From: a virus | Reading direction: 5' to 3' (one strand) | Length of the DNA: 38,356 nt | IMG/VR virus record: IMGVR_UViG_3300035669_000004 | Span: 1 to 38,356 of that record | Shown here: positions 2,315 to 9,477 of the stretch, one piece after another | How the letters are laid out: the number at the start of each line of letters is the position of its first letter | Numbering within the stretch: the first letter of the stretch is position 1 | The notes under the pieces: model-generated | What the model was told of the DNA's origin: nothing | What the model saw: the letters and a program-made list of their open reading frames with translations, nothing else | Databases searched by the model: none | Position numbers and translations under genes: made by a program

Positions 2315-2568
2315 TGGGCGATCATCTTGCGATGACAACCGAACTAAAGCCATGTCCGCTGTGTGGAGGGAAGCCTAGATTGGTTGACCTCGCCGGCTGG
2401 GAAATCCACTGCGACTGCGGCTTGCAGCTATGGCATGAGTTGCCAGACAAGGAACCACTGATAGATCGCTGGAACACCAGAGTTGGAGCATCTTTGCGCG
2501 ATAGGGCGATAGCCATGATCCCTGGCGCGGCAGAAGTGTTGTCCAAGCAACAGGGCGACAAAAGGTAG
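2314..2568 (+). CDS. Lar-like zinc-ribbon protein (restriction alleviation family)
   Basis: The 84-residue product has the signature of the Lar restriction-alleviation family: CPLCGG near the N-terminus, a second pair HCDCG, and WNTR before the helical tail. Lar of the Rac prophage lessens host type I restriction; most phage members are untested. The ATG at 2314 is preceded by a good ribosome site (AAGGAGG about 8 bases upstream); a second Met six codons in is an alternative. It is the last gene of the rightward early operon. Family assignment is fairly firm, the anti-restriction role is inferred. Confidence 0.6.
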   Translation: MGDHLAMTTELKPCPLCGGKPRLVDLAGWEIHCDCGLQLWHELPDKEPLIDRWNTRVGASLRDRAIAMIPGAAEVLSKQQGDKR

Positions 2569-2598
2569 TTGCGGTCGCGTTCGGACCTGTGCTAGACT
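2569..2598 (+). promoter_or_regulatory. candidate late promoter (pR'-like)
   Basis: TTGCGG (2569-2574), an 18-base spacer, then TAGACT (2593-2598) with an upstream TG giving the extended form TGCTAGACT. It starts right at the stop codon of the Lar-like gene and points toward the gene-free segment and the terminase. Its position between a Q-like gene and the late genes is that of lambda pR'. Confidence 0.45.
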
Positions 2599-2604
2599 CG
2601 CGCA

Positions 2605-3105
2605 ATTCGAGCGCGGGCATCCGCAGTGAGTCGATATTCCTTGCGGGGGCAAAGGTGCCAGCAGGGAGCAAGCGCATGGTGATTGGTCCGCCCCGGTCGA
2701 GAAGGCGGGTAAATGGCGAGGCTATCGTTACACGGCCAGCCAGTCGCCAGCCGTTTGCTCTGTCAGAACCGCCAGGAGTCACGGGGCGAATAGAGACTCT
2801 GGACGATGCGCGGTCGTGGCCAGGGGAAAACACAGGTTATGGGCACCGCGCAAAGTGCCTGCTACTGTGAAACCAGCCCGAGTGGTGCCCGGGCCGGCAG
2901 AGCAAAACCATTCAAAGGCTCGCCAAGTGCGGGCCTGTCTCGTTTTTGGCTCACGCCATCCCCAGCATGGGGTCAGCAGCAAGTCACCGTGAGGCACCGC
3001 CGCTCGCTGAGCACAGGGCGCCACCTAGACACATCGCTGCCCCGGCACTTCTTCATGCCAGGTCTCCTGACCTTTCACAGCCCGCCCTAAACCAGCGGGC
3101 TTTTT
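2605..3105 (+). ncRNA. candidate long structured non-coding RNA or late leader
   Basis: About 590 bases between the Lar-like gene and the small terminase hold no convincing gene: the open frames there lack ribosome sites and recognisable protein character. The stretch is bounded by a promoter-like element and an intrinsic terminator, so a transcript of about 500 bases is expected. Local hairpins seen: CCGCC/GGCGG (2688-2708), an 8-bp bulged stem at 2772-2802, ACGA/TCGT inside CTGG/CCAG (2799-2823, exclusive with the previous one), GGGCAC/GTGCCT (2841-2860), CCCC/GGGG (2960-2972), GGCA/TGCC (3044-3059), AGGTC-TCCT-GACCT (3060-3073). It may also hold the pac or cos site. Functional identity unknown. 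Confidence 0.45.
3079..3105 (+). terminator. intrinsic terminator before the terminase genes
   Basis: A 7-bp stem AGCCCGC (3079-3085) and GCGGGCT (3095-3101) with a 9-base loop is followed by a run of T (3101-3105). It lies between the candidate late promoter and the first late gene, so antitermination would be needed for late expression, as at lambda tR'. Confidence 0.75.
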
Positions 3106-3156
3106 CTATTCCCCGACCGGACGGATTCCGGGTCGCCACATCGTGAGGCGCAAATC

Positions 3157-3474
3157 ATGACGCAACGCAGCAAAGTAGAGCCAACTACAGCCAAGAGGAA
3201 GCCTCCGAACGCAGGCAAGGGGCGGAAGGCGGGGGTGCCGAACAAGGCGACTGCCAACGCACGCGAAGCCATTGCCCGCTTCGTGGACGGCAACGCTGAC
3301 CGGCTGACGCAATGGCTGGACGAGATCTATGCGGCTGACGGGGCGAGGGCGGCGTTCAACTGCTTCACGGACCTGATCGAGTACCACGTACCCAAGCTGG
3401 CTCGCCATGAGCACACCGGCAAGGATGGCGGCCCGATGGTGGTGAGCGCAACGCCCACAGACGCATCCCTGTGA
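3157..3474 (+). CDS. probable terminase small subunit
   Basis: The 105-residue basic protein is encoded immediately before, and overlapping by GTGA, the large terminase. The N-terminus is Lys/Arg/Pro-rich (KRKPPNAGKGRKAGVPNK), followed by a helical segment ending in IEYHVPKLARHEHTG. Small terminase subunits recognise the packaging site and load the large subunit. Sequence alone gives only a weak family match; position directly upstream of terL is the main evidence. Confidence 0.7.
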   Translation: MTQRSKVEPTTAKRKPPNAGKGRKAGVPNKATANAREAIARFVDGNADRLTQWLDEIYAADGARAAFNCFTDLIEYHVPKLARHEHTGKDGGPMVVSATPTDASL

Positions 3475-4811
3475 AGTTCACCCCCAGGCAGTTGCAGGCG
3501 CAGTCGGTCCTTGCCGGCAGCGCCACGCACAACATGCTCTTTGGTGGCTCCCGCAGTGGCAAGACTTTTCTGCTGGTGCGCAACACGGTCATGAGGGCAG
3601 TCAAGGCGCCGGGGAGCAGGCACGCGGTGCTGCGGTTCCGCTTCAACGCGGTCAAAGCGGCGGTGGTGCTCGACACGTTCCCCAAGGTGATGCAGATCGC
3701 TTTCCCGGGCGTGAAGTACGACCTGAGCAAGTCCGACTGGTTCGCCGAGTACGAGAACGGCTCACAAATCTGGTTTGGCGGGCTGGACGACAAGGAGCGC
3801 ACCGAGAAGATCCTTGGACAGGAGTACGCAACGATCTACTTGAACGAGGCGAGTCAGATCAGTTGGGAGGCGCGGAACATGGCGCTCACCCGCTTGGCGC
3901 AAAGGGTGGACCAGGTGATTGACGGCCAGCACTCGCTGCTGCAGCCGCGCATGTATTACGACTGCAACCCGCCGAGCAAGGCGCATTGGGCTTACCGCCT
4001 GTTCGTGGAGAAGCTGGACCCCGAGACGCGGATTGCGCTGCCGCACCCGGACGACTACGCGCACTTCCAGATCAACCCGCAGGACAACGCGGAGAACATC
4101 AGCGCTGGCTACATCGAGACGCTCAAGGGCATGTCCGCCAGGTTTCAGCGCCGGTTCTTGCGTGGCGAATGGGCTGACGCGAACCCCAACGCGTTGTTTC
4201 AAGAGGCGGATATCGACAAGTGGCGCGTCTCTGACGGTGTGCTGCCTGAGATGGTGCGGATTGTGGTGGGCGTTGACCCGAGCGGCTCGGATGACGAGGA
4301 CAACGCTGACAACGACGAGATTGGCATCACGGTAGGCGGCCTTGGTGTGGATGGCAACGCGTACTTGTTGGAAGACTTGACGCTCAAGGCTGGCCCGGCA
4401 ACGTGGGCCCGTGTGGCAACCAGCGCCTATGACCGGCACGAAGCGGACTGCATCGTGGGCGAGATGAACTACGGCGGCGCGATGGTCAAACACACGATCC
4501 AGACCGCTAGGCCGCGCACGCCGTTCAAGATGGTCACGGCCACGCGCGGCAAGCATGTCCGCGCAGAGCCATTCAGTGCGCTCTATGAGCAAGGCAAGGT
4601 GCGGCACGCCGGCTCGTTCGTGAAGCTGGAGGACGAGCTTTGCGGCATGTCAACAGTGGGCTACACAGGGCAGGGAAGCCCGAACCGTGCCGATTCGTGG
4701 GTTTGGGTGCTCTCCGAGCTGTTCCCGGGCCTCGTTCGGTCAAAGAAGGAAAAGAAGGAGCGCCCCGAGCAGTCTGGACACGGCGGCGGCGCTCAAAGTT
4801 GGATGGGATGA
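3471..4811 (+). CDS. terL: terminase large subunit (ATPase and nuclease)
   Basis: The 446-residue product starts with GTG in a GTGA overlap. The ATPase half has Walker A GGSRSGKT (25-32) and a Walker B with catalytic acid TIYLNEA (121-127). The nuclease half begins near residue 265 with the acidic strand VVGVDPSG (Asp269) followed by a very acidic loop (DDEDNADND). This is the motor that cuts concatemeric DNA and pumps it into the prohead. The acidic loop after the first nuclease Asp is longer than I would expect for the family. Length and motif order are normal for the P22-like terminase group. Confidence 0.93.
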   Translation: MKFTPRQLQAQSVLAGSATHNMLFGGSRSGKTFLLVRNTVMRAVKAPGSRHAVLRFRFNAVKAAVVLDTFPKVMQIAFPGVKYDLSKSDWFAEYENGSQIWFGGLDDKERTEKILGQEYATIYLNEASQISWEARNMALTRLAQRVDQVIDGQHSLLQPRMYYDCNPPSKAHWAYRLFVEKLDPETRIALPHPDDYAHFQINPQDNAENISAGYIETLKGMSARFQRRFLRGEWADANPNALFQEADIDKWRVSDGVLPEMVRIVVGVDPSGSDDEDNADNDEIGITVGGLGVDGNAYLLEDLTLKAGPATWARVATSAYDRHEADCIVGEMNYGGAMVKHTIQTARPRTPFKMVTATRGKHVRAEPFSALYEQGKVRHAGSFVKLEDELCGMSTVGYTGQGSPNRADSWVWVLSELFPGLVRSKKEKKERPEQSGHGGGAQSWMG

Positions 4812-7442: not shown

Positions 7443-8239
7443 GCACTGAAGCACTGAACGGCGGCGCGCCGGCTCTTGCGAGCGAACCCGCAAACCCTGG
7501 AGCTGCACAGGAACACGCAGCGACGACCAACCCGCTCACGGACAGCGGCGAAGGTGGCGAAGGCAGTCCGGCTGCGCCCAAGACGTTCACTCAAGACGAG
7601 TTGAACGACATCGTGCGCAAGGAGAAGGCCCGGGCGGAAGCCAAGGCCGAGAGAAGGGTTCTGAGGACGCTGGAAAAGCTGCAGCCGCAGCAACAGGCGC
7701 AACCCAGGCAAGCCGAAAGCGACGACGGGAAACCCCGGCGCGATCAGTTCGCCTCCGAGGATGCGTGGCTGGATGCCCGCGACCATTGGCGTGACAGCCA
7801 GCGGGACGCAAGGGCGCGCAACGAGTCGCAAGTACAGGCAACGCAGAAGGTCTGGAAGGAAGCTTTGGCTACTCCAGGGTTCGATGCGGACGCCTTTACC
7901 GAACTCACCGAATCCATGCAGCCTTCGCAGGCCAAGGGATTGGTGGAGGCGGTGCTTGAACTCGATGCGGCCGGCAAGGTTCTGGCGCACCTGACGAACA
8001 ACCCCGACGAAGCCCAGCGCATCGCCGCTCTCTCGCCCTACAAGCGGGCCGCAGAACTGGGGAAGTTGGAAGCAAGGCTTCCCACCGCCCCGAAGACCTC
8101 CAAAACCCCCGACCCCATCGGAGACCCGACGGCGCGGGGAAACACCACCGTCCAAACGTCCGACCTGTCAAAGCTGCCGATGGACAAGTACATCGAAGCA
8201 CGCAAGAAGCAGGGCGCTCGTTGGGCACGCAATCACTGA
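7439..8239 (+). CDS. scaffolding protein
   Basis: The 266-residue product lies between portal and coat genes. It starts at GTG (GTGA overlap). It is highly charged and rich in Ala, Gln, Glu and Lys, with a helical stretch at about 55-85 (TQDELNDIVRKEKARAEAKAERR) and no Cys-rich or membrane region. The C-terminus is short and basic (ARKKQGARWARNH), as in P22 scaffold where a basic helix-turn-helix tail binds the coat protein. Scaffold directs prohead assembly and leaves before packaging. Assigned by composition and position. Confidence 0.8.
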   Translation: MSTEALNGGAPALASEPANPGAAQEHAATTNPLTDSGEGGEGSPAAPKTFTQDELNDIVRKEKARAEAKAERRVLRTLEKLQPQQQAQPRQAESDDGKPRRDQFASEDAWLDARDHWRDSQRDARARNESQVQATQKVWKEALATPGFDADAFTELTESMQPSQAKGLVEAVLELDAAGKVLAHLTNNPDEAQRIAALSPYKRAAELGKLEARLPTAPKTSKTPDPIGDPTARGNTTVQTSDLSKLPMDKYIEARKKQGARWARNH

Positions 8240-8262
8240 TTCCCACTTTCTGAGAGCACGAA

Positions 8263-9477
8263 ATGTCCAACACCTACGCAACCTGTTCCATCATCGCGAA
8301 GGAAGCCCTTCCGATCCTGGAAAACATGCTGACCTTCGCGTCGGCGGCCAACCGCGATTGGGAAGACGAGTTCACGGGCAACATGGCCCGTGGCTACGCT
8401 CCCGGCGCGACCATCAACATCAAGAAGCCCCCGCGCTACACGTACCGTGCCGGCCGCGTCGCGGTGCCGCAAGCGACCACGGAAGGCACCGTTCCGCTGA
8501 CCGTCTCGCAAGGCGGTTGCGACCTGTATTTCACCTCCGCTGAGCGCACGCTGTCGCTCACCAAGCTGGAGGCGAAGATCCAGGCCGCCATGGCTCCGGT
8601 CGCCAACGAAATCGACCGCCAGGGCTTGCAGCTTGCGCACTACAGCACGTTCAACTGCATCGGCACGCCCGGCACGCTGCCCAACACGCAGGCGCTCGCC
8701 CTGCAAGCGGTGCTGGCTGCCAACCAGCGCCTGGATGAAATGGGCGCCCCCCGCAAGGACGGCAACCGCGCATTCATCATGAACCCGGCCCTGAACGCTG
8801 CTGCGGTGCAGGGCTTCGCCGGCATGTTCAATGCCCAGAGCACGCTGTCCAAGCAGTTCTCCAGCGGCATGATGGTCGACAGCCTGGGCCTGTCCTACGC
8901 GATGGACCAGAACGTGGACGTTCACACGAACGGCTCGCAAGCCGTCACCGGCACCAACATCAACGGTGCTGGTCAGACCGGCTCCTCGATCACGGTCGTT
9001 GGTCTGGCTGGCAACATCACCAAGGGTACGGTCATCACCCTGCCTGGCGTGTTCGCTGTCAACCCGCAATCGCGCACCTCCACCGGCACGCTGGCGCAGT
9101 TCGTGGTGACGGCGGATGTGGCTGCTGCTGCAACCCAGATCCCCATCAGCCCGGCTATCGTGACTTCCGGCGCCTTCCAGAACGTGACCGCCTCGCCCAC
9201 GACCGGCTCGCCGTTCACGATCTTCGGTACGGCTTCCTCGGCCTACAACACCAACATCGCGTTCCACAAGGACGCCTTCACGCTGGCGATGGTGCCGATG
9301 TGGGCACCCCCGGGCGGCAAGGGCGTCATCGACGTGGCGCAGGAGTCCTACAAGGGCTTCACGATCAAGGTTACCGAGTACTACGACGGCGTGAACGACA
9401 CGGCCAACATCCGCCTGGATGTGCTGTTCGGCTGGGCCTCGCCTTATCCCGAACTGAGCGTGAAGTACGCGACCTGA
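8263..9477 (+). CDS. major capsid protein (P22 coat-like)
   Basis: The 404-residue product follows scaffold and resembles the P22 coat family: an N-terminal arm with EALPILENMLTFA, a P-domain with PPRYTYRAGRVAVPQATTEG, a telokin-like insertion in the middle (about 220-320, rich in Thr, Gly and Val), and the C-terminal strand YKGFTIKVTEYYDG. It forms the HK97-fold shell. A GC hairpin follows the gene (9486-9509), which is usual after the most abundant virion transcript. Confidence 0.92.
   Translation: MSNTYATCSIIAKEALPILENMLTFASAANRDWEDEFTGNMARGYAPGATINIKKPPRYTYRAGRVAVPQATTEGTVPLTVSQGGCDLYFTSAERTLSLTKLEAKIQAAMAPVANEIDRQGLQLAHYSTFNCIGTPGTLPNTQALALQAVLAANQRLDEMGAPRKDGNRAFIMNPALNAAAVQGFAGMFNAQSTLSKQFSSGMMVDSLGLSYAMDQNVDVHTNGSQAVTGTNINGAGQTGSSITVVGLAGNITKGTVITLPGVFAVNPQSRTSTGTLAQFVVTADVAAAATQIPISPAIVTSGAFQNVTASPTTGSPFTIFGTASSAYNTNIAFHKDAFTLAMVPMWAPPGGKGVIDVAQESYKGFTIKVTEYYDGVNDTANIRLDVLFGWASPYPELSVKYAT

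Follow-up and report, generated by a model that had tools for sequence, protein, structure and literature searches.

The window, by which we mean the whole stretch of 38,356 nt of viral DNA analysed here (positions 1 to 38,356 of IMG/VR record IMGVR_UViG_3300035669_000004), contains between 2569 and 3156 a region for which the ORF listing gives short overlapping ORFs only and no credible gene; all features of the window described below are on the plus strand. The last early gene ahead of this region (2314-2568) encodes a Lar-like restriction-alleviation protein (phrog_599, E=1.9e-11; PF14354, E=1.3e-7), and further upstream 1743-2120 encodes a 125-aa protein with a sigma-70 region-4-like helix-turn-helix at its C-terminus (NCBIfam SigZ, E=4.6e-6, residues 67-122). 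The region is followed by a probable terminase small subunit (TerS, 3157-3474), which matches a family of unknown function (phrog_15261, E=1e-9) and is named for its position preceding the terminase large subunit (TerL, 3471-4811; phrog_979, E=4.9e-70). The absence of genes claimed in a preliminary description of this DNA is borne out: the longest plus strand ORFs within the region, of 93, 94 and 64 aa, overlap one another in different frames, a conserved block in the related locus L229 sits in another frame than in the window, and in locus L069 the frame equivalent to the window ORF ends in a stop within 9 codons. In the wider RNA family described below, the ORFs overlapping 251 modules are scattered across both strands with no coding signal, and the median length of the gene-free gap that holds a module is ~650 nt (both among the matches listed).

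The region begins with a predicted extended -10 promoter (2569-2598; TTGCGG-18-(TGC)TAGACT) that has an 18-nt spacer and a TG one base ahead of the -10 box TAGACT, as had been described. Similar boxes stand in the same place in L006, L010, L019 and L069, in the last of these as TTGACC-18-TAAGAT, and L229 has TGTGCTA(G/C)ACTCGCGC in common with the window. The window promoter is too far from consensus to be picked up by a 9/12 promoter-consensus scan, and enrichment of promoters across all loci is modest (25% vs 14% in shuffled sequence, among the matches listed). At the expected transcription start lies a palindrome, CGCGCAATTCGAGCGCG (2599-2615), which is kept in L069 and L542 and retains its shape in L229, and it is followed by GTCGAT (2630-2635), conserved in L069 and L542. 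The palindrome is conserved along with the sigma-4-like gene in the window, L069 and L542, and could be a DNA site of the encoded protein. The hairpin H2 (2638-2667), TCCTTGC/GCAGGGA around GGCA-nnnn-TGCC, is conserved as pairing with changed bases, being formed by CCCCTAG/CTAGGGG in L069 and by AATCCCC/GGGGATT in L542, where the inner part differs from that of the window.

Two predicted terminators close the region. T1 (2916-2943) has an 8-bp stem with a T-run that begins 6-7 nt past it, and similar sequence is found after the RNA in L069 and L204, whilst T2 (3079-3105; AGCCCGC-9 nt-GCGGGCT-TTTTT), the terminator already noted, has a 7-bp stem, a 9-nt loop and five T residues and is the stronger of the two. 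A transcript of ~340 nt, ending at the terminator at 2943, is more likely than the ~500 bases initially proposed. Terminators were detected in 20 of 159 loci among the matches listed, 8 of them on the reverse strand. Between T1 and T2 lies block C, CCGCTCGCTGAGCACAGGGCGCCACCTA (3000-3027), conserved in L069 and L542 only; the order along the window is palindrome, H2, domain A, a hairpin at 2876-2894, strand D, T1, block C and T2.

The region had been called hairpin-rich, with at least seven local hairpins, but its folding energy alone does not stand out: on the plus strand z=-2.05, with 4 of 100 shuffles equally stable, and on the minus strand z=-1.69. As this is barely beyond shuffled sequence, the number of hairpins alone is no evidence, and a claim of structure resting on the window by itself would be weak; the comparative evidence for pairing is, in contrast, strong. 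It centres on domain A (2663-2763), which consists of an outer stem, P1 (2665-2674/2752-2761), an internal loop CAU/AGC (2675-2677/2749-2751; CAU/AGY in the family), an inner stem, P2 (2678-2685/2741-2748), and a variable tip (2686-2740). The window has the internal loop in the family form and both stems paired, with all pairs standard. P1 covaries, and P2 in the family takes the form G-NN-GAUU/AGUC-NN-C. A long helix is formed by the block pair AGCAAGCGCATGGTGATTG / CAGTCGCCAGCCGTTTGCT, common to the window and L069. What is conserved in domain A is paired and internal-loop bases, not an exposed seed. The stretch between domain A and the hairpin at 2876-2894 is without clear comparative support, and for 2765-2897 and 2946-2999 it is possible that the hairpins are due to chance. 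The two mutually exclusive hairpins proposed at 2772-2802 and 2799-2823 are conserved in neither L069 nor L229.

Relatives were sought in IMG/VR loci with the 80 closest TerL and the 80 closest TerS proteins. Within this set the gene-free stretch of L069 has blocks of window 2594-2685, 2741-2764 and 3000-3027, and a descriptor search found L019, L010 and L006, in which stem bases differ and pairing is retained; L229 and L204 were located through pattern scans. Scanning IMG/VR with the pattern CGCATGNNGATT...AGTCNNCAGYCG in two gap ranges, each of which gave at least 120 contigs, yielded at least 260 matches in at least 236 contigs. Both N positions and 5 or 6 of the 6 flanking bases are paired in 243 of the 260 matches listed, with 11 different NN combinations among these 243. 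After filtering there are at least 250 well-paired copies of domain A in at least ~230 contigs, with 1-3 per contig; of the 220 distinct loci among the matches listed, 188 carry a single copy, 30 carry two and 2 carry three. The pattern used to collect the 250 copies fixed CGCATG, GATT, AGTC and CAGYCG, which are therefore invariant by construction, and evidence comes from the free positions only, that is P1, the NN pairs and the pair inside GATT/AGTC; it is these free positions that covary. The more divergent model matches L040 and L026 depart from the collecting pattern and also count as evidence.

In an alignment of 67 copies 96.4% of cells are paired, two-sided changes number 98 (19 in shuffles), and the covariation score is 0.349 (0.112 shuffled); when the partner is slid by 1-3 columns the score is at most 0.099. 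With the window and its nearest relatives left out, a set of 46 copies gives 96.2% paired, 91 two-sided changes vs 21.5, and a score of 0.411 vs 0.119 shuffled. Covarying base pairs, which the preliminary description had suggested looking for in related phages, are present (91-98 two-sided changes vs 19-22 in shuffles). A covariance model of these 46 copies, R2, has a single match in the 38-kb window, at exactly 2663-2763 (40 bits, E=4.2e-11), and it also detects L229, L006, L019, L010, L069 and the more divergent L040 and L026, whereas across about 760 kb of other contigs L229 alone is above noise. The long structured phage RNA that had been suspected is upheld by strong covariation across independent phages and by a model that had not seen the window; we have very little doubt of either the structured RNA or the family to which it belongs, both being well supported.

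Searches against known sequences returned little. Rfam 15, likewise suggested at the outset, has no match to the window and ten homologous loci at the gathering score, and relaxing to E<=5 brings up nothing of relevance in window 2560-3160, L370 150-870 or phiPLPE; a hit to Betaproteobacteria_toxic_sRNA in the window reached 22.9 of 50 bits, comprised only the T2 terminator and was rejected. Blastn of the window RNA against annotated phages gave nothing useful. In bacterial genomes the short seed GCATGGTGA..TYRCCAGCYGTT gave 61 chance matches inside genes, none convincing, and model R1 applied to five bacterial genomes found no domain A among the 150 of ~1000 candidates that were scored. The exact pattern has one match in 300 Burkholderiales and none in 369 Pseudomonas-class genomes (1/669 in total), and so the RNA is mostly viral. 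Domain A is present at 5-7 of the 80 related-TerL loci and absent from all 80 TerS loci searched; inheritance with the terminase was therefore rejected, and the RNA is not simply part of this terminase cassette. No description of domain A was found in the open-access literature, subscription papers lying beyond that search; absent from Rfam 15, it is a previously uncatalogued RNA family.

The 3' strand of P1 belongs to a shared strand, S (2754-2764), that can pair upstream in P1 or downstream with strand D, CAGAGCAAAAC (2898-2908), which complements S and nearly repeats the P1 5' strand. In the window 2754-2760 can pair with 2666-2672 or with 2900-2906 (GAGCAAA), and in many copies the P1 3' strand is complementary both to the P1 5' strand and to a strand 50-240 nt downstream. 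Of 57 loci in which P1 is not of the commonest type, 11 have a downstream strand that pairs perfectly over 7 nt, where 1.5 are expected and the maximum in 500 permutations is 7; in loci with the commonest P1 a downstream partner is found in 68 of 127, vs 6 (among the matches listed). As they overlap in S, the P1 helix and the S/D helix exclude each other, and the sharing of 2754-2761 between them is a conserved candidate switch, judged from sequence complementarity, in place of the exclusive hairpins first proposed. With one strand common to two exclusive helices, the RNA may have a change of fold built in. There is no sign of an attenuator mechanism, since the S/D pairing and T1 do not overlap.

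Domain A is often followed by a second module, domain B, which is closed by the downstream strand complementary to S. It consists of G-n-GUG-AAU, a hairpin with loop GRCUGA, a variable part, the hairpin GCCGG-aGAUCAGYa-CCGGC and then CAC, and it is present in isolated phages of E. coli (Bas77-80, IME11), Klebsiella, Salmonella, Yersinia and Iodobacter. A model, R3, that takes in E. coli Bas77 and IME11 and Iodobacter phiPLPE independently detects domain B in L229, L010, L358, L512, L528, PY54 (Yersinia), STGO-35-1 (Salmonella) and Madison (Klebsiella). Domain B covaries; the set was selected for the closing helix and the last stem, and in the first hairpin, which alone is free of selection, 98.5% is paired with two-sided changes in 5 of 5 pairs. 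Domain B is not recognised by R3 in window 2600-3156 with filters off (best 0.6 bits). The hairpin at 2876-2894, GCCCG-AGTGGTGCC-CGGGC, has the stem of 5 and loop of 9 and the place of the last domain B hairpin with a different loop, and is possibly its equivalent. Locus L542 has the start-site element, H2, block C and domain B without domain A, which makes the RNA modular. The sequences GGGTTAGCGCC and CTGCTTTATG occur near domain A in 28 and 30 of 176 loci respectively (for example in L344 at about 7590-8300), are rare elsewhere in the same contigs, and are probably further modules of the same RNA.

Other features were observed around domain B in isolated phages. Four of these phages, Bas77 (L533 2149-2196), IME11 (L534 2304-2351), STGO-35-1 (L536 2264-2311) and Madison (L537 2274-2321), have ahead of domain B, at a distance of 200-350 nt, a frame resembling a tmRNA tag, GCAAACGATGATGTTGTTCTGATGGCGGCGTAATAG (ANDDVVLMAA, two stops), with one synonymous change, in Madison; matches to Rfam tmRNA models are weak and below cut-off, and ARAGORN detects no tmRNA. 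In Madison 3.2 kb without annotated genes (L537 1438-4650) contains the tag, domain B, an STnc100 match (3839-4053) and then tRNA-Met, and reads like a cluster of structured RNAs. In IME11 2.1 kb without annotated genes (L534 1472-3558) contains domain B and two tRNAs with a terminator at its end, and in phiPLPE an 811-nt stretch without annotated genes (L529 1-811), unmentioned in a comparative paper on that phage group, contains domain B and several further hairpins.

The genomic setting of the family was surveyed among the matches listed. The first downstream gene is most often a terminase subunit, from several unrelated families, and the first upstream genes are often recombination genes (HNH, RusA, Erf) and also single-strand-binding proteins; in some loci the terminase lies upstream of the RNA, not downstream. 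Large ORFs within 2.5 kb show a marked orientation, with the downstream ORF on the strand of the RNA in 124 of 137 loci and flanking ORFs divergent in 44 vs convergent in 7. A tRNA lies within 1 kb of the RNA in 21 of 230 loci; some loci, such as L344 and L370, have repeated modules as well as tRNAs. The RNAs of phiPLPE, STGO-35-1 and L229 lie away from terminase genes; in L229 a convergent ligase gene follows and there is no co-oriented gene after the RNA, and in STGO-35-1 the domain B RNA and tRNA-Met are oriented against the structural genes on either side.

The RNA of the closest relatives is preceded by a sigma-region-4-like gene and followed by late genes. In ~14 loci a homologue of the 1743-2120 protein is encoded on the strand of domain A, 47-1006 nt ahead of it, and L542 has a 71% identical copy. 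The window protein has an AlphaFold model with a pLDDT of 79, whose best Foldseek hits are to sigma region 4 domains, with no E-value under 0.001. By analogy of position and fold it is a candidate late regulator that would be Q-like. It has no Q match in Pfam, PHROG or NCBIfam, and its identification as lambda Q was rejected (hhalign against HK022 Q, probability 0.1%).

The order candidate regulator, promoter, RNA, terminators and terminase is established, and the late-leader layout it represents is fairly well supported and in our view probable, position and co-orientation both favouring a leader. The explanation we prefer, that the window holds a late-leader RNA gene bearing a member of a new modular family of structured phage RNAs, seems to us evenly balanced between right and wrong, and counted against it are the modest promoter enrichment, the few terminators and the loci in which the terminase is upstream. 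The mechanism is proposed by inference, and we would not be surprised by either outcome. Host polymerase would start near 2605, transcribe the RNA and mostly stop at T1 (~340 nt) or T2 (~500 nt), so that folded RNA would accumulate, and polymerase modified by the sigma-4-like protein, a putative antiterminator, would read on past the terminators into the terminase operon. The functional product would be the RNA that is released, in which domain A, whose covarying stems hold an invariant internal loop, would most likely act in trans by binding a protein, whilst during transcription S would first close P1 and may later move to D, switching the fold. Modular A/B units, one to three per transcript and joined by a two-way strand, may then form an early-to-late RNA device, either a late antiterminator or a protein-binding scaffold, which we put forward only tentatively. 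The RNA is probably trans-acting, and a free-standing product is consistent with the terminators after the RNA, the tandem copies, the convergent ligase of L229 and, in STGO-35-1, the domain B RNA that lies with tRNA-Met opposite to its neighbours.

The main rival is a put-like role in cis, as an RNA antiterminator or polymerase-modifying leader resembling HK022 put or the RNA part of a Q-type site, whereby nascent domain A, or domain A with the S/D exchange, would let the same polymerase ignore T1 and T2. The RNA has a promoter before it and tandem terminators after it, with late genes beyond, the sigma-4-like gene adjoins, the co-orientation bias fits a purely cis-acting leader too, and HK022 putRNA provides a precedent of nascent RNA that alone can cause terminator read-through (PMC9378689). 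However, a purely cis role is disfavoured by L229, with no co-oriented gene after the RNA, and by domain B RNAs opposite to their neighbours; the RNA follows the terminase in some loci, and the HK022 late region (30000-40751, a stretch outside which the put sites lie) has no domain A match, so that we consider this role unlikely. Less likely again is a small RNA like STnc100 or PasD, made from a phage late region and regulating by base pairing. STnc100 (RF02076) is phage-borne, has a fold closed by GGUGAAU ... CACC and similar to domain B, occurs with domain B in the one gene-free region of Madison, and has been reported to be related to PasD (PMC13192938), but the window has no STnc100 match, Madison alone among eight records is above cut-off, R3 matches neither the window nor Madison's STnc100 copy, and an exposed seed is not what domain A conserves.

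It would seem very unlikely that the element is an RNA or DNA site for packaging, as had also been suggested, a reading without direct support: the RNA is beside terminase genes, on either side, in many loci, yet these terminases come from unrelated families, most relatives of this terminase type are without it, the covariation is of the RNA kind, and three RNAs noted above are away from terminase genes altogether. That the leader has no RNA function and its hairpins are due to chance would agree with a folding energy only weakly beyond shuffles, but is scarcely credible when hundreds of copies show compensatory changes and an independent model detects the RNA, and for domain A it is contradicted. 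The original observation is confirmed and its first interpretation partly supported. The RNA family is common in environmental phages and usually placed at the switch to making new particles; given where it sits, between early and late genes, one can test whether it takes part in assembly or in the control of late genes, and the related domain B module is open to direct tests in Bas77-80 and IME11, isolated phages of laboratory E. coli.

To our knowledge there are few large structured phage RNAs, GOLLD and ROOL among them, which are often found beside tRNA genes. The RNA described here is like them in being a large structured phage RNA with repeated modules and tRNAs at some loci, and differs in its conserved elements, in the small proportion of loci with nearby tRNAs and in having no Rfam match, so that the comparison with GOLLD and ROOL first drawn does not extend to membership. 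STnc100 shares with domain B a GGUG/CACC closing helix, an AAU-hairpin and a final stem-AG..GCA-stem hairpin, whereas domain A is absent from its consensus and the window has no canonical domain B; this resemblance and the adjacency in Madison are a lead, not membership. HK022 put is also a structured RNA near a phage promoter and ahead of terminators, and differs in being ~70 nt with two hairpins and located in early operons (PMC9378689). Closest in layout is the lambda pR'-tR' leader (6S RNA) with Q, which has in common an upstream regulator, a promoter, a short terminated transcript and late genes past an intrinsic terminator. Unlike lambda, the window has two terminators, a covarying module common to hundreds of phages that is absent from the lambda and HK022 late regions searched, and terminase rather than lysis genes next. 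Of the Q-responsive leader originally suggested, the known-family Q gene directly upstream is lacking, the profile of the upstream protein showing no similarity to HK022 Q, which is of the lambda type, whilst the position, with a sigma-4-like gene upstream and the terminase downstream, stands, and by position only the window would fit a Q-pR'-tR'-like layout.
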